Source: a virus | DNA length: 31,683 nt | Virus record (IMG/VR): IMGVR_UViG_3300007280_000011 | Location: 1-31,683 of that record | Reading direction: 5' to 3' (one strand) | Shown: in pieces, positions 9,499 to 30,941 of the stretch | How the letters are laid out: the number at the start of each line of letters is the position of its first letter | Numbering within the stretch: the first letter of the stretch is position 1 | Position numbers and translations under genes: made by a program | The notes under the pieces: model-generated | The model's database searches: none | Told to the model about the DNA's origin: nothing | What the model saw: the letters and a program-made list of their open reading frames with translations, nothing else

Positions 9499-9616
9499 AC
9501 AATGGCAGCCATGTTGGGACATAGCACTACTAATAATAGGTGTGGGCTTTTGGTGGGCTATGTGCTCACTCTATGAGAGATTCACAACTAAACCAAAGGG
9601 AGCAACCAGGAAGTGA
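9491..9616 (+). CDS. 41-residue single-pass membrane protein
   Basis: A tiny gene encoding MFEQWQPCWDIALLIIGVGF, WWAMCSLYERF and TTKPKGATRK. Residues about 10-27 (IALLIIGVGFWWAMCSLY) form one membrane-spanning helix, followed by a basic tail (positive-inside). The start overlaps the preceding gene by 8 bases and the stop overlaps the methyltransferase GTG as GTGA, so it sits inside a coupled chain. Function unknown. Options are an early membrane modulator or a superinfection factor. A holin role is less likely, as it is expressed with early genes and a 3-TM holin exists elsewhere. Confidence 0.55.
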   Translation: MFEQWQPCWDIALLIIGVGFWWAMCSLYERFTTKPKGATRK

Positions 9617-10485
9617 AAGTTTTAGACTTATTTGCAGGCATTGGCGGCTTTACTCTAGGTTTAGAAAAAGCAGGATTTGAAACAGTAGCTTTCTGTGAAA
9701 TTGATCCGTTCGCACAGAAGGTTTTAAACAAGAATTGGCCAGGAGTACCAATTTATGACGACGTTAAAGAAATCACAGCAGAACAACTCAGAACAGATGG
9801 AATTGAAGTTGACATCATTACAGGAGGATTTCCCTGTCAAGACATCAGTGTCGCAGGGAGACAAGAAGGACTTAAAGGAGAACGATCTGGACTCTGGTCT
9901 GAATGCGCTCGTTTGCTTAGGGACATTCGCCCAAGATATGCCATATTTGAAAACGTCAGAAACTTACTCAACGGCAATAATGGAGACTGGTTCCGACAGG
10001 TACTCTGGGAAATTTCCGCCATCGGGTATGATGTTGAGTGGCACTGTATACCAGCTTCCGCGCTTGGTGCCCACCACAAAAGAGACAGGGTCTGGATTGT
10101 GGCCTACTGCAACAGCGATGACAGGCGGCGAAGGAGTAGCGCCCAGTCACATCAACGGGAAACACGGTTGGAATCTAGGTGCAGCAGTACAGGACAGCAT
10201 ATCAGAGAAACCGCACAGAATGTGGCCGACTCCTCAAGCATCCGACAATCGAGACAGGGGCAACTTAAGCAATCCTTGTTTGCAAAGGAGAGTAAAGAAG
10301 GGAAAACAACTTATGCTCTCACAAGTGGTGCACCCGACATCTGGAAAACTGAACCCAACGTGGGTCGAGTGGCTAATGGGGTTCCCGACAGGACACACCG
10401 ACTTAAATGCTTAGGTAATGCAGTAGTGCCTCCTATTCCTGAAATGATAGGCAGAGCAATTATGCAGCGGGAGATTAACCTATGA
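9613..10485 (+). CDS. dcm-like: C5 cytosine DNA methyltransferase
   Basis: A 290-residue Dcm-type enzyme transferring methyl from S-adenosylmethionine to cytosine C5. Motif I DLFAGIGG (5-12), the acidic CEID (28-31), motif IV GGFPCQDIS with catalytic C75, motif VI FENV (112-115), motif VIII HHKRDRVWIV (154-163), and motifs IX/X RLKCLGNAVVP (263-273) are all present. The section between VIII and IX (about 166-250) is the short target-recognition region and looks odd, rich in Arg, Ser and Gln. It starts with GTG, coupled to the upstream gene. It probably protects phage DNA from host restriction. A second long ORF occupies another frame of the same DNA. Confidence 0.92.
   Translation: MKVLDLFAGIGGFTLGLEKAGFETVAFCEIDPFAQKVLNKNWPGVPIYDDVKEITAEQLRTDGIEVDIITGGFPCQDISVAGRQEGLKGERSGLWSECARLLRDIRPRYAIFENVRNLLNGNNGDWFRQVLWEISAIGYDVEWHCIPASALGAHHKRDRVWIVAYCNSDDRRRRSSAQSHQRETRLESRCSSTGQHIRETAQNVADSSSIRQSRQGQLKQSLFAKESKEGKTTYALTSGAPDIWKTEPNVGRVANGVPDRTHRLKCLGNAVVPPIPEMIGRAIMQREINL
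9755..10414 (+). CDS. Overprinted ORF inside the methyltransferase gene (+1 frame), 219 residues
   Basis: An open frame of 219 codons lies wholly within the methyltransferase gene. Its ATG is preceded by AGGAG (9741-9745) at 9 bases. The product contains EDFPVKTSVSQ (24-34), KENDLDSGLN, FPPSGMMLSGTVYQLP (87-102), GSGLWPTATA, RMWPTPQASDN (155-165) and the end KLNPTWVEWLMGFPTGHTDL. These resemble a phage protein pattern I remember as standalone proteins or as C-terminal parts of larger methyltransferases (SGMMrnGxVY, WPTPxASD, LNPxWVEWLMGFPxGWTDL). The same bases encode GGFPCQDIS and VGRVANGVPDR in the methyltransferase frame. It may be a real overlapping gene, or a conserved by-product of that frame. 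Function unknown. Confidence 0.4.
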   Translation: MTTLKKSQQNNSEQMELKLTSLQEDFPVKTSVSQGDKKDLKENDLDSGLNALVCLGTFAQDMPYLKTSETYSTAIMETGSDRYSGKFPPSGMMLSGTVYQLPRLVPTTKETGSGLWPTATAMTGGEGVAPSHINGKHGWNLGAAVQDSISEKPHRMWPTPQASDNRDRGNLSNPCLQRRVKKGKQLMLSQVVHPTSGKLNPTWVEWLMGFPTGHTDLNA

Positions 10486-12389: not shown

Positions 12390-13997
12390 ATGGCTAACTT
12401 TGTGAGACATGAAGGGTGTCCCAAGTGCAATTCTTCGGACGCCCTTGCTATTTACGACGACGGTTCTACGCATTGCTTTAGTTCCGTTTGTGACTACCAT
12501 ACACACGGTGACAGTACTATGTCCGAAGTGATACCGATAGCCAAAGCTAAGCCACTACAAATGTTTGGTACAGTGGCAGCAATACCCAACAGACGAATAT
12601 CCAAAGAAACCTGTATGCGCTTTGGCGTAACCGTTGAGTACGGTTCTACAGGTGAAATCGAAAAGCACTACTACCCTTTTTATGACGTTAACACTGGTGA
12701 AGTGTGTGCAGCTAAGATCAGGGAAGTAAAGACTAAGAACTTCTTCAGCAATGGAGACCCAAAGACAGCAGGGTTCTTCGGACAACAACAGTGCACCACT
12801 AACAAGTTCATAACCATTACTGAAGGTGAACTGGACGCTTTAGCAGTGTACGAAATGTTCAACAAGCAGTACGACGTGGTGTCACTACGTGCTGGTGCGT
12901 CCTCTGCAGCCAAAGAGATCAAGGAACAGTTAGAGTGGCTTGAGTCCTATGACCAAGTGGTTCTCTGTTTTGACAACGACAAAGCCGGTGACGCTGCTCT
13001 GGAACAAGTTAAGGACCTCTTCAGTCCTAACAAGTTAAAAATAGTAAAGTTACCACTCAAGGACGCCAGTGACATGCTCATGGCGAACCGTGTTAAGGAC
13101 TTTACGCAAGCATGGTGGAATGCAAAGGTTTATCGTCCTGACGGCATTGTAGCAGGGACTGACACATGGGACACACTGGTACAAAAGCGCCAGGTGAAGT
13201 CCATACCTTATCCTTGGAACGGCCTGAATGAGATAACAAGAGGACATAGGCCCTATGAGTTGGTCACGATCACAAGCGGCAGTGGTATGGGAAAGTCCCA
13301 ATTTATCAGAGAAATCGAATATGATTTACTACGCCGATGCGAAGGCAATATTGGAGTCTTGGCGCTTGAGGAAGATTTGGCCCGAACAAGTCTTGGCATC
13401 ATGTCGGTGGCAGCAAATAGGCCCTTACACTTGGAAGAGGACACGCCAGTGGACGAGCTTCGGCCATTCTGGGAAGCCACATTGGGAACAGGACGTTACT
13501 ACTTATTTGACCATTGGGGGTCAACTTCAGCAGATAACTTGCTCGCCCGTGTTCGCTACATGGCAAAAGCACTTGACTGCCGGTACGTCGTACTGGATCA
13601 CTTGTCCATCGTCGTCAGTTCCCAAGAGTCAGGAGACGAGAGAAAAGCCATTGACGAGATCATGACACGTCTCCGTACACTCGTGGCTGAAACAGGCATC
13701 TGCTTGTTCCTCGTGTCACACTTACGCAGGTCACAAGGTAAGGCACACGAGGACGGAGCGCAGATCAGCTTAGGTGAACTACGTGGTTCACAAGCTATCG
13801 CTCAGTTGTCCGACATTGTCATTGGTATGGAACGTGACCAGCAGAATGAAAACGAAGACGTAAGAAATACTACTACTGTTCGTGTCCTCAAAAATAGGTA
13901 TACAGGTGAAACTGGACCCGCTTGTTGGCTGCAGTACGAAAAACAAACAGGGAGGTTACAGGAAGTCGCAAATCCTAATGTTGGCGAGGATTTCTAA
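12390..13997 (+). CDS. Bifunctional primase-helicase (T7 gp4-like)
   Basis: A 535-residue enzyme that makes RNA primers and unwinds the fork. Zinc finger: C10, C13, C29, C34. Toprim primase: TITEGELDAL with E145 and VVLCFDNDKAGD with D195 and D197. Helicase: Walker A SGSGMGKS (296-303), ALEED near 326, Walker B YVVLDHLSIV (399-408), LVSHLRRS (441-448) and motif H4 ELRGSQAIAQLSD (463-475). Domains appear in the order of T7 gp4 and all catalytic residues are present. It starts two bases after the SSB stop and overlaps the HNH gene as TAATG. Confidence 0.93.
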   Translation: MANFVRHEGCPKCNSSDALAIYDDGSTHCFSSVCDYHTHGDSTMSEVIPIAKAKPLQMFGTVAAIPNRRISKETCMRFGVTVEYGSTGEIEKHYYPFYDVNTGEVCAAKIREVKTKNFFSNGDPKTAGFFGQQQCTTNKFITITEGELDALAVYEMFNKQYDVVSLRAGASSAAKEIKEQLEWLESYDQVVLCFDNDKAGDAALEQVKDLFSPNKLKIVKLPLKDASDMLMANRVKDFTQAWWNAKVYRPDGIVAGTDTWDTLVQKRQVKSIPYPWNGLNEITRGHRPYELVTITSGSGMGKSQFIREIEYDLLRRCEGNIGVLALEEDLARTSLGIMSVAANRPLHLEEDTPVDELRPFWEATLGTGRYYLFDHWGSTSADNLLARVRYMAKALDCRYVVLDHLSIVVSSQESGDERKAIDEIMTRLRTLVAETGICLFLVSHLRRSQGKAHEDGAQISLGELRGSQAIAQLSDIVIGMERDQQNENEDVRNTTTVRVLKNRYTGETGPACWLQYEKQTGRLQEVANPNVGEDF

Positions 13998-17600: not shown

Positions 17601-19471
17601 TGGACGCATACCAACAGTACATACACAAAAGCAGGTACGCAAGGTACTTGCCTGAAGAGCAACGGCGTGAAACCTGGGAAGAAACTATCGACCGTTACCT
17701 CAACTTCTGGATAGAAAAAGGTAAGCTTACTCTTGAGGACGCTAATGGTATCTTTGCAGACATCCATGACATGAACGTAATGCCCTCCATGCGAGCCTTA
17801 ATGACTGCAGGAGAGGCACTAGACCGTGACAATGTAGCTGGTTTTAACTGCTCTTACTTGCCTATAGATCATCCTAAAGCGTTTGACGAAATGATGTACG
17901 TACTTATGTGTGGCACTGGCGTAGGCTTCAGTGTTGAACGCCAGTACGTATCTAAACTACCTGAAGTTGCGGAGGACTTTCATGACACAGATACCGTTAT
18001 ACACGTCGCTGACAGCAAAATTGGATGGGCTAAAGCCTACAGAGAACTTGTTAGCTTGCTCTATTCGGGTCAGCTTCCAAAGTGGGACGTATCTGGAGTA
18101 CGACCTGCAGGGTCAACCCTTAAAACCTTTGGAGGTAGAGCGTCTGGTGCGGATCCTCTTGTTGACCTCTTTAAATTTACCACCGAAATCTTTAGGGAGG
18201 CTGCTGGACGTAAGCTTTCCTCTATCGAGTGTCACGATATCTGCTGTAAGATTGCACAAATCGTTGTCGTCGGAGGGGTCAGGAGAAGTGCTCTTATCAG
18301 TCTTAGTAACCTCACTGACGATAGACTACGACGGTGTAAGTCAGGACAATGGTGGCAAGACAATCCACAACGAGGACTAGCCAACAATAGCGCCTGTTAT
18401 ACAGAGAAGCCGGACTTTGAGGCATTTTTAAATGAGTGGACAAGCTTATACGAGTCACGATCAGGAGAGCGAGGAATGTTCTCTAGGATTGCAAGTCAAA
18501 AGCAAGCTGCAAAAAATGAGCGACGAGATGCTACCTATGACTTTGGAACTAATCCATGCTCAGAAATCATCCTCCGACCCAATCAATTCTGTAATTTGTC
18601 AGAGGTTGTTGTCAGGGCGTCCGATAGTTTGTCAGACCTTAAACGAAAAGTACGTACTGCGACTATCCTTGGAACTTTACAGGCTACCTTAACTAACTTC
18701 CGCTACTTACGTAAGGTGTGGCAGAAGAACACTGAAGAAGAAGCACTTCTTGGTGTCAGCTTGACAGGCATCATGGATCACCCAACGCTATCAGGAAGGA
18801 GGGACAAAGGTGTTCTCAAGACTTGGCTTACTGAACTCAAGGAAGAAGCGATTAACACTAATAAGGAATGGGCTACTAAGCTTGGTATTAATATCAGCAC
18901 TGCCATTACTGCTGTTAAACCTTCCGGTACTGTTAGCCAGCTGGTTGATTCTGCATCTGGTATCCATCCTAGATACTCAGATCAATACATTAGACGAGTT
19001 AGAGCGGACGCAAGAGACCCACTCTGTCAAGTCTTAGAAGCGGCAGGAGTGCCTGTAGAGGAAGACGTAATGTCGCCTAGTACTAAGGTATTCTCCTTCC
19101 CAATACAATCTCCTGAAGGCGCTGTAGTGGCCTCTGAGATGGGAGCAATGGAACAACTTGAGCTATGGGAAATTTACCAGGATTTCTGGTGTGAGCATAA
19201 GCCGTCTATGACCTGTTACTACCGTGACGAAGAGTTCTTGGAAGTGGGTCAGTGGTTGTACAACAAGTTCGACAAGATAAGTGGAGTTAGTTTCCTCCCT
19301 TATTCCGAACATACGTATCAACAAGCGCCTTATGAACCCATAGACTTAGAGACCTATGAGAAGCTGAAGAAAGAGTTTCCTGAGACCATCGACTGGACAA
19401 TCTCAGAAAACTCAGACATGACGGAAGGGTCTCAACAGTTAGCCTGCACTGGTAATAACTGTGAGTTGTAA
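17600..19471 (+). CDS. nrdJ: Ribonucleotide reductase, class II monomeric (B12-dependent)
   Basis: A 623-residue enzyme reducing ribonucleoside triphosphates to deoxy forms with adenosylcobalamin. Motifs: GFNCSYLPID with C84 as redox partner, LMCGTGVGFSVE (102-113), GGVRRSALISL (225-235), the finger-loop TNPCSEIILRPNQFCNLSE (N318, C320, E322, C331), AVKPSGTVSQL and a C-terminal swinging-arm pair C616/C621 (ACTGNNCEL). It resembles the Lactobacillus RTPR type (739 residues) but is shorter, as in marine podoviruses. It supplies dNTPs for phage replication and depends on host B12. It is the last early gene, followed by a terminator. Confidence 0.93.
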   Translation: MDAYQQYIHKSRYARYLPEEQRRETWEETIDRYLNFWIEKGKLTLEDANGIFADIHDMNVMPSMRALMTAGEALDRDNVAGFNCSYLPIDHPKAFDEMMYVLMCGTGVGFSVERQYVSKLPEVAEDFHDTDTVIHVADSKIGWAKAYRELVSLLYSGQLPKWDVSGVRPAGSTLKTFGGRASGADPLVDLFKFTTEIFREAAGRKLSSIECHDICCKIAQIVVVGGVRRSALISLSNLTDDRLRRCKSGQWWQDNPQRGLANNSACYTEKPDFEAFLNEWTSLYESRSGERGMFSRIASQKQAAKNERRDATYDFGTNPCSEIILRPNQFCNLSEVVVRASDSLSDLKRKVRTATILGTLQATLTNFRYLRKVWQKNTEEEALLGVSLTGIMDHPTLSGRRDKGVLKTWLTELKEEAINTNKEWATKLGINISTAITAVKPSGTVSQLVDSASGIHPRYSDQYIRRVRADARDPLCQVLEAAGVPVEEDVMSPSTKVFSFPIQSPEGAVVASEMGAMEQLELWEIYQDFWCEHKPSMTCYYRDEEFLEVGQWLYNKFDKISGVSFLPYSEHTYQQAPYEPIDLETYEKLKKEFPETIDWTISENSDMTEGSQQLACTGNNCEL

Positions 19472-25521: not shown

Positions 25522-26169
25522 TCAGATAGTCCTAAAGTACATCTCTTCTGGATGCTTAGCTGCGTCTATTGCGATAGCGTCAGACAAATATCTATCAGCA
25601 ATACCAAAGTACTCAGCAGTAGAAGTTCCTCCTGTTTCTCCACGTTCACGAGCCAACAAAGCAACAGCTAGGTGTACTACAGGTTGCGAAGGTATTAGCA
25701 ACGTGTCAGTATTAGCACTCAAGTCACCTTGTCGTTTAATCACGTCAAACCGCAAGCTGTAGACACCGTCAGGAGTCGGGCCTACGAGCACTTGCGTGTC
25801 ACCACTAGCGTCAAGGCCGTTGTACGTGTAGTACATAGGTGCGCCTGTAGCAGCATTATTAATGTACAGTTGCTCGTTAAACCAGTCCTTACTTTGGTAC
25901 TCCATAAAGACATTACTAGTGTCGTTAAGAACACACATAACCTTTACGTTGTCACCGCAGTCCGTCAAGGAATAAGTATTGTCGTCGGCTGTAGTAGAAA
26001 CAGTAATAGTGCTTCTTAAGGCTGACCAGTCGTTAGACTCCTCTACTAACTTCTTAGCGTCGTTAATAAAGTCACCAACCATCTTGTTGTAAGTAGTGCT
26101 AGTAACCGACGTAGTTTCTTCTTCACGCAGCCTACGTAGCACGTTATTCATAAGGTTCAAGTATGTCAT
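25522..26169 (-). CDS. Head-tail adaptor protein (gp4/gp11-like)
   Basis: A 215-residue protein beginning MTYLNLMNNVLRRLREEETT, then SVTSTTYNKMVGDFINDAKK and DWSALRSTITVST. An N-terminal helix pair followed by a beta domain (YYTYNGLDASGDTQVLVGP) is the layout of the adaptor ring under the portal in short-tailed phages. The pattern L..vlr.lre...tsv.ss.Y.k.v.dfIN.AKr.ve....W..LR is common in marine phage adaptors. Overlap ATGA with the giant gene upstream, one base before the gp10-like gene. Assignment is fairly good. Confidence 0.7.
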   Translation of the reverse strand: MTYLNLMNNVLRRLREEETTSVTSTTYNKMVGDFINDAKKLVEESNDWSALRSTITVSTTADDNTYSLTDCGDNVKVMCVLNDTSNVFMEYQSKDWFNEQLYINNAATGAPMYYTYNGLDASGDTQVLVGPTPDGVYSLRFDVIKRQGDLSANTDTLLIPSQPVVHLAVALLARERGETGGTSTAEYFGIADRYLSDAIAIDAAKHPEEMYFRTI

Positions 26170-29100
26170 CCGATATATTCCTTAAACAAACTGCTTGTTA
26201 TTCCGGTTGGTCCTAATGTGTCCTGTAAAGACGCTACGTAGTCAACTTGAGGTGCTTGACCTATTTCTTCTAGTGTAGGCAACTCGTAATTAATGCCTGA
26301 CATGAAAGGAGTAAAGTCAGTCTTCTTAGGTGCTGCCGCAGCTGCCATCATGCCTATTCCACTACCAACACCAGGTCCTGAACCATCACCAGTACCAGTC
26401 CCTGTTCCAGCACCTGAACCACCTCCAGTTCCAGTACCGTCTCCTACACCAGTTCCTTCACCAGTTCCGTCACCGTCGCCGTCTCCAGTTCCAGTAGTGT
26501 CTTTGGCCTGCTCTTCAGCGTCCTTCCTTACTTCTTCAGAAGACTGTAGATCCTTCTCTAGCTGTTCGTCAGCAGCGTCCTTGTTGGCCTGTTCAGCATC
26601 CTTAGCTTCGGTTTCAGCACTAGTGTCTTTCTGAGCATTTTCGTCCTTAGTCGCTTCCTCAGCCGCCTGTTGTTCCTTAGCGGCCTCTTCTGCTGCCTGT
26701 TGTTCCTTAGCTTGCTCTTCGGCAGCTTGTTCCTTAACAGCTTCTTCAGCAGCTACTTCTTCTTTACGAGTTTGCTCAGCTTCTTCCTTACGTACCTGCT
26801 CCGCTTCTTCTTTTTCTTGGGTCTCTGCAGCAGCTTCCTTTTCTGATCTTTCTGCAGCAGCCTCTTCCTTTTCTTGAGTTTCAGCGTCAGCTTCCTTTTT
26901 AGCCTCTTCAGCGTCCTTGGCTTCGTCCTCAGCTTCTTTCTCTGCTGTTTCAGCCTCAGCGTCCTTCTGAGCTTCTTCGGCAGCTATTTCTTCTTTCTCT
27001 TTAGTTTCTGCAGCAGCGTCCTTAGCTGTTTCTTCGGCGTCTTTATCTTCCTGTTCTGCAGCTGTTTCTTCCTTAGTTTTATTTTCGGCGTCCTTGTCTG
27101 CAGTCTCAGCAGCAGCCTCTTCTTTACGTTGCTCTTCTGCAGCAGCCTCTTTATCTTCCTGTTCTGCAGCAACATCTTTATCTTCCTGTTCTGCAGCAAC
27201 ATCTTTATCTTCTTTTTCAGCATCTTTGTCTTGTTGTTCTGCAGCAGTATCCTTGGCTTCTTTCTCAGCATCTTTATCAGACTGTTCAGCAGCTACTTCT
27301 TTATCTTCCTTTTCTGCATCTTTTTCTTCTTGTTCTGCAATAGCGTCTTTATCTTCTTTTTCTGCGTCCTTATCAGCTTGCTCTGCAGCAGCGTCTTTTT
27401 GTTCCTTTTCGGCTTCTTCCTTTTGAACTTCTTCAGCAGCTTCTTTAGCTATTTCTTCAGCTTCTTCTTTTCTACCCTGTTCTGCTTCTTCCTTCTGCTC
27501 TGTTTCAGCTTGAGCATCTTTTTCTGCAGTCTCAGCAGCTACCTCTTCTTTCTCTTCGGTTTCAGCCTGAGCGTCCTTCTCAGCAGTCTCTGCGTCCTTA
27601 GATTCAGTTTCAGCATCGGCTTCCTTCTTAGCTTCCTCAGCTGCTACCTCTTCTTTCTCTTGGGTTTCTGCAGCAGCTTCCTTAGCTGTTTCTTCTGCAT
27701 CCTTATCAGACTGTTCAGCAGCTACCTCTTCTTTTTCCTTAGTCTCAGCATCTTTGTCAGCCTGCTCTGCCGCTTGCTCTTCCTTAGTTTTGTTTTCAGC
27801 TTCTTTATCCGCTTGTTCTGCAGCAGCATCTTCCTTTGCTTTATTCTCAGCATCCTTATCTTGTTGCTCAGCTTGAGTTTCTTTTGTTTCTTTTTCCGCG
27901 TCTTTTTCCTGTTGTTCAGCTACGTCCTTTTCCTGAGTCTCAGCCTCAGCGTCCTTCTTAGCTTCTTCAGCAGCTACCTCTTCCTTTTCCTGAGTTTCTG
28001 CATCAGCGTCTTTCTTAGCTTGTTCTGCAGCTTGTTCCTCTTTCTCTTGAGTTTCTGCCTCAGCATCTTTCTTAGTTTGTTCAGCGGCTACTTCTTCTTT
28101 TTCTTTAGTTTCAGCTTCGGCGTCTTTTTCTACTTGTTCCGCAGCAGCGTCCTTTTGCTCTTGTTCTGCTTGCTGTTCCTTTTGAGTTTCCTCAGCGTCC
28201 TTACCTTCAGCTTCTGCTAACTCTTTTTTATCTTCTTCAGCCTGACGGTCCTTCTCTGCTTTTTCTGCAGCAGCCTCTTCCTTTTCTTGAGTCTCTGCTT
28301 TAGTGTCCTTTTTAAGTTGTTCTGCAGCGGCCTGTTCTTTTTCCTGAGTCTCTGCAGCAGCGTCCTTCTCTGCCTTTTCAGCAGCAGCTTGTTCTTTTTC
28401 TTGGGTCTCTGCAGCAGCTTCTTTTTCAGCAGTCTCAGCCGCAGCTGCTTCCTTCTGTTGTGTTTCTGCTGCAGCTTCCTTATCTGCTTTTTCAGCAGTC
28501 TCTTTGTCAGCACGTTCAGCAGCGTCTTTAGAAGCTTCTGCAGCAGCGTCCTTAGATGCACGTTCGGCTGCAGCATCTGCATCCTTCTGTCTCTCAGCTG
28601 CAGCAGCGTCCTTCTGTCTTTCTGCGGCAGCATCTTGTTCTTTCTGCTGTCTTTCTGCAGCAGCTTCAGCCTGATCCTTTTGTATTTCTTCAGCCGTGTC
28701 GTCAGCAGAAGGAACAGTACTAGCTAATGGGTCGTCTTCATCAGTAGGAGTAGTAGAGGAGTCGCCTCCGCCACCACCACCGCCACCTATTTCAGGCTCA
28801 GGTTCAGGCTCAGGTGTTTCTTCAGTAGGGTCGTACTCAGGGTCTATAAAAATTTCTGTTGGTTCGTTAGGGTCTCGTACACGAATAATGTTTCCAGATT
28901 CGTCTACGTCATTAATCTGACCGTACTCTTCGCTTCTATCGTAGTTAAAGTCTATTACTACTTGAGAACCGTTAGTATTAACTGTATATCCTGACTGAGC
29001 TAGTGCTTCAACTAATTCTTCTTGAGTTGATACACCAAACAAACCCATTAAAACTTCTTGGTCTGAATCGGAGAGACCAAAGAAACCGTTAGCGTCTACA

Positions 29101-30941
29101 CCTGTTCCAATGCTTGTCATATGATCAACAATGGAACCAATGTCTTGTTGATCTACTGCACTATCAATAGCAGATTGAAAATCAGTGTCTGAAAACTGTC
29201 TAGGATCATAAGGAACCTGACCTTCAGTTAAACCTGTTAGTTGATCTACAACAGTAGGGTCACTTACTACGTTACCGTCTGCATCGAACCACTGACCTTC
29301 TTCTTGGTAGTAAGCAAGGTTGCCTTCAGAGTCATAAAGACCGTCCTGACCTAACTGAATTTCTCCTGTAGCAATAATAGACGCGCCGTCTTCAGCAAAG
29401 CCGTCGTAGTAATCAACAGTGCCGTCTTCGTTTACTGCAGCAGTGCCTCCTAAATCATAGACATTACCGTCAGCGTCAACATAAGTTCCGTCAGAAGTAT
29501 ACCTAAGTCCTTCTATATCTTGACCTAGAATTCTATTACCGTTTTCGTCGGTATAGTAGTAGTATGAACCAGGGTCTATGTAGCCTTCACCTGCTCTGTA
29601 CTCTAGTTCTTCTTCATCTATTTCTTCTACAGCACCTTCTACAGCATCACCAATTTGACTTACAATTTCTTCAAACTGTTCTGTGTACTCAGAGATGTCA
29701 GTATCAAATAAACCTTCTGCTTGTGACAAGAAGTCTTCAATAGCACTAATGTCTGGTACGTAGCCTCTAAAGAATTCCTCAAGCTGGTCTAACTCAGTTT
29801 GTGCTAAGTCTTCTAGGTTTTCTAAGTACTCACCAAACTGGTCCGTAAGACCTGCTCTAAGCATTGCTTCAATAAGCTGTTGTGGGTCTAATTCACCGCT
29901 TGTCGCTAACTGAGTAGCTGAGTTAATAACACCTGCTTGGACAACAGCGTCAACAAACTCATTACCTGTTTCTAACGCTTGGAGTGCTTCCTGTGCAATG
30001 TCGGTGTCTAACAAACCACCAGTAACAGCAGCTTGTATAACACTTTCAAGACTTATGTCTAAGTCACCGCCTGTTAAGACACTGGTAGCTGCCTGTGAGA
30101 TTACTGAGTTAACAGCAGCAGAAAAAGCCGCAGCAGAAGCACCACTTAAACCTACTGTAGAAGAAAGAGCAGATCCAACTCCAGCACCACCTAAAGCTAA
30201 ACCTACAGCAACTTGAAAGCCTGCTTTAAATATGTCTCCGGCACCAGAACTTTGGTCCTCTACTTTAACGTAGGCTGATCCATTCCATCTAAAGCGGTCT
30301 CCCGAAGTAGAATAAAGGTCAGTAACAACACCGTACTTACGTAGTAATGCTTGGTTGGCTTCGGAGTTAAGCCAGTTGTTGTAAGCACCTTGCTGTGTGC
30401 TAGTTTGTTGTCTACGTAAGTTTTCTAAGTTTTGACCAGGGTCGCTAGGATCAATAGTTAAGTCAGCGTCACCCTCAAGAATCATCTCTTGATCTTCGGT
30501 AAAGCCGGTGTCGGCGTCAGCCCACTCTCCAACAGTTAGCTCACCAGACTGAAGTAACTCTTCACGTTCGGTCATGTAAGCAAGGTAGTTATCAAACGTA
30601 CCAAATACTTCAGGTAGTCTGTTTACTTCGTCGCTTTCAAAGTACTCACGTAGTTCGTCTACAGTAACCTGTCGAACTTCTCCTTCCTGACCATAAAGAT
30701 AGTTCTGTTGTGCTCCTCCTCTTTCCCTACCTTCTATAAACGTAAAGGTCATTTCTTCTGGCTCTGGAGTAGGAGCAGGTTCTGAAGTAGGCGGTGGTCT
30801 AACTATAGGGGCTTGCTTTGTGGGACCACCTTTGACCCCACCAGTTGGCATTCTTGGTTGGCCGGTAGTTTCATCAAAGGTAGGCGTACCTCCTGAGTAC
30901 ACGCTCCCACCTGTAAACATTCCTCGAGAACTTTTAGCCAT
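26166..30941 (-). CDS. Giant 1591-residue protein with a charged repeat rod
   Basis: Not recognised. Residues 1-75 are Pro/Gly-rich and disordered. Residues 75-700 contain a mixed domain (FIEGRERGGAQQNYLYGQEG), a hydrophobic Ala/Gly section (VAVGLALGGAGVGSALSSTV, about 240-330), acidic helices and ENGNRILG / DADGNVYDLGG-like short turns (470-580). A Pro-Glu and Gly8 linker follows near 705-725. About 740 residues of repeats of Glu, Lys, Ala, Asp and Gln come next. Then a Gly/Asp/Thr linker (about 1480-1525), MMAAAAAPKKTDF and a short conserved-looking end. The order holin, this gene, adaptor, gp10-like suggests a virion part such as a fibre or internal protein. Its frame is intact. Confidence 0.75.
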   Translation of the reverse strand: MAKSSRGMFTGGSVYSGGTPTFDETTGQPRMPTGGVKGGPTKQAPIVRPPPTSEPAPTPEPEEMTFTFIEGRERGGAQQNYLYGQEGEVRQVTVDELREYFESDEVNRLPEVFGTFDNYLAYMTEREELLQSGELTVGEWADADTGFTEDQEMILEGDADLTIDPSDPGQNLENLRRQQTSTQQGAYNNWLNSEANQALLRKYGVVTDLYSTSGDRFRWNGSAYVKVEDQSSGAGDIFKAGFQVAVGLALGGAGVGSALSSTVGLSGASAAAFSAAVNSVISQAATSVLTGGDLDISLESVIQAAVTGGLLDTDIAQEALQALETGNEFVDAVVQAGVINSATQLATSGELDPQQLIEAMLRAGLTDQFGEYLENLEDLAQTELDQLEEFFRGYVPDISAIEDFLSQAEGLFDTDISEYTEQFEEIVSQIGDAVEGAVEEIDEEELEYRAGEGYIDPGSYYYYTDENGNRILGQDIEGLRYTSDGTYVDADGNVYDLGGTAAVNEDGTVDYYDGFAEDGASIIATGEIQLGQDGLYDSEGNLAYYQEEGQWFDADGNVVSDPTVVDQLTGLTEGQVPYDPRQFSDTDFQSAIDSAVDQQDIGSIVDHMTSIGTGVDANGFFGLSDSDQEVLMGLFGVSTQEELVEALAQSGYTVNTNGSQVVIDFNYDRSEEYGQINDVDESGNIIRVRDPNEPTEIFIDPEYDPTEETPEPEPEPEIGGGGGGGGDSSTTPTDEDDPLASTVPSADDTAEEIQKDQAEAAAERQQKEQDAAAERQKDAAAAERQKDADAAAERASKDAAAEASKDAAERADKETAEKADKEAAAETQQKEAAAAETAEKEAAAETQEKEQAAAEKAEKDAAAETQEKEQAAAEQLKKDTKAETQEKEEAAAEKAEKDRQAEEDKKELAEAEGKDAEETQKEQQAEQEQKDAAAEQVEKDAEAETKEKEEVAAEQTKKDAEAETQEKEEQAAEQAKKDADAETQEKEEVAAEEAKKDAEAETQEKDVAEQQEKDAEKETKETQAEQQDKDAENKAKEDAAAEQADKEAENKTKEEQAAEQADKDAETKEKEEVAAEQSDKDAEETAKEAAAETQEKEEVAAEEAKKEADAETESKDAETAEKDAQAETEEKEEVAAETAEKDAQAETEQKEEAEQGRKEEAEEIAKEAAEEVQKEEAEKEQKDAAAEQADKDAEKEDKDAIAEQEEKDAEKEDKEVAAEQSDKDAEKEAKDTAAEQQDKDAEKEDKDVAAEQEDKDVAAEQEDKEAAAEEQRKEEAAAETADKDAENKTKEETAAEQEDKDAEETAKDAAAETKEKEEIAAEEAQKDAEAETAEKEAEDEAKDAEEAKKEADAETQEKEEAAAERSEKEAAAETQEKEEAEQVRKEEAEQTRKEEVAAEEAVKEQAAEEQAKEQQAAEEAAKEQQAAEEATKDENAQKDTSAETEAKDAEQANKDAADEQLEKDLQSSEEVRKDAEEQAKDTTGTGDGDGDGTGEGTGVGDGTGTGGGSGAGTGTGTGDGSGPGVGSGIGMMAAAAAPKKTDFTPFMSGINYELPTLEEIGQAPQVDYVASLQDTLGPTGITSSLFKEYIG
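26480..28690 (-). repeat. Coding repeats of the charged rod
   Basis: About 2.2 kb of imperfect in-frame repeats. The translated units vary between 9, 16 and 19 residues, for example VAAEQEDKD (9), VAAEQSDKDAEKEAKD (16) and AEAETQEKEEQAAEQAKKD (19). Two perfect 27-base tandem copies lie at 27148-27174 and 27175-27201, with a partial third. Hydrophobic residues other than Ala are nearly absent, so it is more like a single alpha-helix or disordered polyampholyte than a classic coiled coil. Confidence 0.8.

Follow-up and report, generated by a model that had tools for sequence, protein, structure and literature searches.

The analyzed window, a viral DNA stretch of 31,683 bases that forms an IMG/VR virus record, contains a C5-cytosine methyltransferase (MTase) gene within which a second gene is nested in the +1 frame. 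Together, the two genes very likely encode a two-polypeptide C5-cytosine methyltransferase whose subunits are read from overlapping frames of one DNA stretch. The frame 0 polypeptide, composed of motifs I-VIII, a poorly conserved linker, and motif X, would provide cofactor binding and catalysis. The +1 polypeptide, presumably translated from an internal ATG that has a ribosome-binding site of its own, would supply the target-recognition region with its PTP repeats as well as motif IX, and is predicted to dock onto the catalytic chain and thereby complete the enzyme. Target recognition by the nested product and methylation by the pair are predicted, and the enzyme might benefit the phage, for example by hiding its DNA from restriction.

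Distribution of methyltransferase motifs between two reading frames

The proposed catalytic (alpha) polypeptide of 290 amino acids is encoded on the plus strand from a GTG start (positions 9613-10485) and matched PF00145 (E = 8e-58) and TIGR00675 (E = 7e-47). All motifs by which membership in the C5-cytosine methyltransferases (PF00145) was assessed are present in frame 0: motif I (LFAGIGG, 9628-9648), motif IV with PCQ (GGFPCQDIS, 9823-9849), motif VI (ENV, from 9949), motif VIII (KRDRVWIVA, 10078-10104), and motif X (RLKCLGNAVVP, 10399-10431). In C5 MTases, the target-recognition domain (TRD) and motif IX sit between motifs VIII and X. Inspection of the sequence from 9613 to 10485 revealed no motif IX in the MTase frame, and the alignment of M.HhaI to the window MTase spanned residues 2-168 only, i.e., through motif VIII. 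Instead of residing in one chain with the catalytic motifs, as in PF00145, both the TRD and motif IX were assigned to the +1 chain. The variable region and motif IX of C5 MTases belong to the small, DNA-recognizing domain (PMC3404938).

The nested gene, whose product is referred to as OLP (the proposed beta subunit), extends over 219 codons from an ATG at 9755 to position 10414 on the plus strand. Its start is preceded at a distance of 9 bases by the Shine-Dalgarno-like site AGGAG (9741-9745, plus strand), which lies inside the WPGVP codons of the MTase. The open frame and this site had been reported in a preliminary description of the sequence and were recovered at these positions, and all motifs quoted there occur in the frames to which it had assigned them. 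The N-terminal part of OLP (9755-10090), which includes the conserved motif KFPPSGMMLSGTVYQLP (10010-10060), is overprinted on MTase motifs IV-VIII, with both frames being constrained. It is followed by a segment at the place of the TRD (SGLWPTATA ... MWPTPQASD, 10091-10342), where OLP is conserved by dN/dS and the MTase frame encodes a weakly conserved linker. Based on dN/dS and a tail-only hidden Markov model (HMM), the final segment (10343-10405) was assigned to motif IX (GKLNPTWVEWLMGFPTGHTDL), overlapping VGRVANGVPDRTHRL of the MTase. OLP matched phrog_1008 of the PHROG collection along its length (E = 3e-23; residues 10-217 on 29-281 of 329). No match to OLP was obtained in Pfam and NCBIfam, and sequence searches of PDB and Pfam with OLP returned nothing usable.

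At the place of motif IX, the +1 frame of the window contains LNPTWVEWLMGFP. When the OLP profile was compared directly with canonical MTases by hhalign, no significant similarity resulted (P about 0.1), the best place being motif IX; the proposed link between OLP and the canonical enzymes runs through single-chain relatives. In these relatives (L341/L380, L375/L404, L406, L407, L421, and L504-L506; L-numbers are labels of related loci), motifs I-VIII are followed in one and the same frame by LPTP repeats, a segment like RLSPRFVEWMMGLPDGWVTD, and motif X. The C-terminal parts of large methyltransferases mentioned in the preliminary description were thus confirmed, in rarer relatives whose MTase frame carries the OLP modules. 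The tail-only HMM, built from window-type OLPs, matched the segment preceding motif X in every chain of alignment A6 (36 chains; E = 1e-8 to 4e-4), and in a comparison of the A6 chains with canonical C5 MTases (hhalign, 1.7e-33) this segment fell on motif IX. An AF2 model of the single chain L504 was confident in the catalytic part and mostly reached pLDDT >90 in residues 300-384, which comprise motifs IX and X, while the PTP region was unmodelled; the best PDB matches of this model in Foldseek were M.HhaI. The HMM matches, the A6 alignment, and the L504 structure together indicate that the tail of OLP corresponds to motif IX. The AF2 model of OLP alone was poor (pLDDT 60, pTM 0.26) and gave no Foldseek match. 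Judged by position, the PTP repeats of OLP stand where the TRD belongs, which suggests that they may recognize DNA.

It is unlikely that OLP, although encoded by a real gene, is a separate protein, be it a regulator or inhibitor of the enzyme or an unrelated product. Such a protein would be in line with an N-terminal part that is conserved on its own and lacks known relatives outside the family, but OLP contains the motif IX and the TRD-position segment that are missing from the MTase frame, and relatives have the OLP modules within the MTase chain or linked to motif X. The modulator of the enzyme that had been suggested initially is too vague, because the evidence points to the missing recognition and motif IX part of the enzyme itself.

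Selection on both frames and predicted translation of the nested gene

For 48 independent pairs, aligned on the internal ATG, substitution rates were determined at MTase codon position 3. They dropped from 0.38-0.52 upstream of the OLP ATG to 0.25 from the ATG on and were back at 0.42 directly after the OLP stop, so that the substitution pattern reveals where the nested gene starts and stops. A relaxed stretch at OLP codons 30-50 (0.38-0.40) is probably a linker. In a dN/dS analysis by frame, as had been proposed in the preliminary description, changes were classified by their effect in both frames for 32 disjoint pairs. Upstream of OLP, the +1 frame was neutral (0.78-1.13) and the MTase constrained (0.11-0.16). 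Both frames were constrained in the overlap with motifs IV-VIII (OLP 0.29-0.77, MTase 0.12-0.32). Over the TRD segment, OLP was conserved (0.19-0.29) versus a nearly neutral MTase frame (0.80-1.23), and over the motif IX segment values were 0.09-0.28 for OLP and 0.20-0.59 for the MTase. Downstream of OLP the +1 frame was neutral again (0.90-1.32). The rates across the TRD were 0.283/0.100/0.095 by MTase codon position, and thus the wobble position in this segment is that of the +1 frame. Here the MTase frame was free of stops in all 145 cases, with 3.9 stops expected and completeness having been a selection criterion, as expected for a linker to motif X.

Shine-Dalgarno-like sites preceded candidate internal ATGs in 49% of 139 relatives compared to 23% in a synonymous resampling null, and an evident Shine-Dalgarno sequence was missing in about half of the relatives. 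In one branch (e.g., L004, L005, and L009), OLP starts with MSWLFS no more than a few bases from the MTase start, so that the gene is almost entirely double-coding there. The sharp constraint boundaries at start and stop, the purifying selection on the second frame, the enrichment of Shine-Dalgarno-like sites, and the universal co-occurrence with this MTase clade show that the +1 ORF is a real gene and agree with the true overlapping gene that the preliminary description had considered.

Along the DNA, the modules follow one another as in a normal C5 MTase, which would also suit programmed ribosomal frameshifting that yields one trans-frame protein with motifs I-VIII joined to the TRD and motif IX of the +1 frame. 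We regard this explanation as improbable, because constraint on the +1 frame sets in abruptly at its own ATG, a long way before the TRD, because Shine-Dalgarno-like sites are enriched before the internal ATGs, and because genes of the window type would need a second shift back to reach motif X.

The likelihood of such an open frame arising by chance was assessed by synonymous recoding of the MTase over positions 9755-10411 with the codon usage of the window. None of 5000 recoded sequences lacked +1 stops (mean 10.4 stops), and the longest +1 run among them was 169 codons. Recoding with the MTase gene's own codons left the +1 frame open in 0/5000 trials, and permuting these codons did so in 1/5000. 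In the other large genes of the window, which comprise 229-1591 codons, the longest +1 runs measured 43-168 codons. A passive by-product of the constrained MTase frame, the initial counter-view, is hardly credible and was rejected: the motif positions shared by both frames force some +1 similarity, but recoding never kept the +1 frame open, constraint changes at the ATG and stop, the MTase is close to neutral where constraint on the +1 frame is strongest, and the neutrality of the +1 frame on both sides of the ORF (0.78-1.32) provides a built-in control.

Distribution and frame arrangements among relatives

A tblastn search with OLP retrieved relatives in 73 phage records, and the hosts of OLP-bearing phages include Microcystis, Synechococcus, Mycobacterium, Salmonella, Lacticaseibacillus, and Paenibacillus. 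Across phages, plasmids, viral contigs, and the bacterial genomes scanned, OLP was located in the +1 frame over a C5 MTase at all 245 loci examined, two of which (L080 and L197) showed an additional partial same-frame joining. The same held true for six of six records that had been picked partly for a "hypothetical protein" or an unannotated feature. A standalone OLP gene, as in the standalone family postulated in the preliminary description, was not found in phages, plasmids, viral contigs, or bacterial genomes. When loci were fetched by MTase similarity, OLP was present in 80/80, and six near relatives with 64-92% MTase identity had all kept OLP without any stop; as far as sampled, OLP is thus fixed in this MTase clade. 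Frequent +1 stops next to an intact MTase, which had been named as evidence against an overlapping gene, were not seen, with a +1 stop in none of 147 relatives.

This nested arrangement is widespread in phages and bacteria and mostly missing from gene annotations. Gp56 of Paenibacillus phage Shelly is a +1 OLP relative over an MTase and was annotated by one author group as 'g55 internal gene'. In a Pseudomonas plasmid (L161, NZ_CP124656), Stenotrophomonas phage S72 (L163), and Vibrio phage 1.236.O (L164), only one frame is annotated; the retained frame is called 'hypothetical protein' and the partner frame is lost. Loci L161, L162, and L166 form a sub-branch from Pseudomonas and Klebsiella with a differing OLP middle (WVLTTxGxDxGxLHTPTTKANY) and an ending of the usual kind with a WLMGWP-like motif.

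An automatic classification was applied to 537 loci, which are not all independent and 118 of which remained unclassified by the patterns. With stricter boundaries, the window type with motif IX in the +1 frame and motif X in frame 0 (T1) counted 282, and the type with the repeats in +1 and motifs IX and X in frame 0 (T2) counted 88. All modules were in frame 0 in 14 entries (T3), several of which are the same gene, and motifs IX and X were both in the +1 frame in six entries (T4). In the five T4 loci examined (L080, L340, L384, L396, and L425), the catalytic chain stops shortly after motif VIII and the +1 frame contains PTP, IX, and X, which indicates that the linker in the TRD frame is dispensable once motif X has moved.

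The constrained frame follows the location of the module. For motif IX, rates by codon position were 0.216/0.098/0.136 in T1 and 0.110/0.092/0.344 in T2, and for the TRD, based on few pairs, 0.369/0.246/0.229 in T1, 0.317/0.206/0.234 in T2, and 0.203/0.256/0.385 in T3. In a tree of the catalytic part, T1 formed one side of a branch, and T3 and T4 were scattered, mostly in the other half. This tree used older T2/T3 labels and an older cut, and some of its T2 rows, such as L405, L408, and L507, are T3 by the stricter count. The distribution on the tree required about six changes for T3 and about four for T4, with bootstrap not settled, and its scatter suggests that re-framing was repeated. On balance, we favor the view that a large family of C5 methyltransferases in phages and bacteria is a frame-mobile split enzyme, in which motifs IX and X and the recognition region moved repeatedly between two frames that are both translated, the products assemble, and each module works from either frame. 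Slippage or recombination at the repeated LPTP units might be how modules switch frame. At L405 (2486-3748), LPTP units occur in both frames beside a +1 stop.

Comparison with known enzymes and other reading frames of the window

Two-polypeptide C5 methyltransferases include M.EcoHK31I, whose small gene reportedly lies inside the large one in another frame, and M.EaeI. To our knowledge, it is very rare for one gene to encode functionally linked subunits in overlapping frames. By motif placement, M.EcoHK31I is the closest known enzyme. It consists of a larger polypeptide with motifs I-VIII and X and a smaller one with motif IX (PMC3404938), and in the window, judged from the sequence, motif IX is likewise on a separate small polypeptide and motifs I-VIII and X are on the large one. 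However, the TRD of M.EcoHK31I was predicted on the larger subunit (PMC3404938), whereas the TRD position in the window is constrained in the small chain. Moreover, M.EcoHK31I is known as a single restriction-modification enzyme rather than as a broadly distributed family of phages that occurs in several frame arrangements. M.AquI, with motifs I-VIII on the large subunit and the distal variable region, motif IX, and motif X on the small subunit (PMC3404938), resembles the five T4 relatives examined; in contrast to M.AquI, the window keeps motif X on the catalytic chain and its genes are nested.

The catalogue entries for phrog_1008 and Shelly gp56 state no function other than 'DNA methyltransferase' or 'hypothetical protein'. 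In the mostly open-access literature searched, no account of such an arrangement in phages was found, and within this scope the breadth of the nested arrangement and the repeated re-framing of its modules appear to be undescribed. Hundreds of loci in several bacterial phyla and in their phages share the nested arrangement. If the two-polypeptide enzyme is real, many annotated 'orphan' phage cytosine methyltransferases would, in their annotated form, be half of an enzyme and would seem inactive if the internal frame were disturbed in cloning. The methylation predicted for the pair is directly testable, and the alternative frame arrangements represent natural experiments on the movement of modules between frames.

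Downstream of the MTase gene, the window contains a T7-like gene set (primase-helicase, DNA polymerase A, and endonuclease I), and it also carries a ribonucleotide reductase-like gene. The longest +1 runs in the ribonucleotide reductase-like and primase-helicase genes were 151 and 142 codons, respectively, both shorter than that of the MTase gene. Plus-strand ORFs of 149 codons (17931-18380) and 136 codons (13255-13665) lie inside the ribonucleotide reductase-like and the primase-helicase gene, respectively. A further plus-strand ORF of 448 codons with a TTG start (26874-28220) is antisense to a gene for 1591 amino acids on the minus strand (26166-30941) and may be a composition effect.
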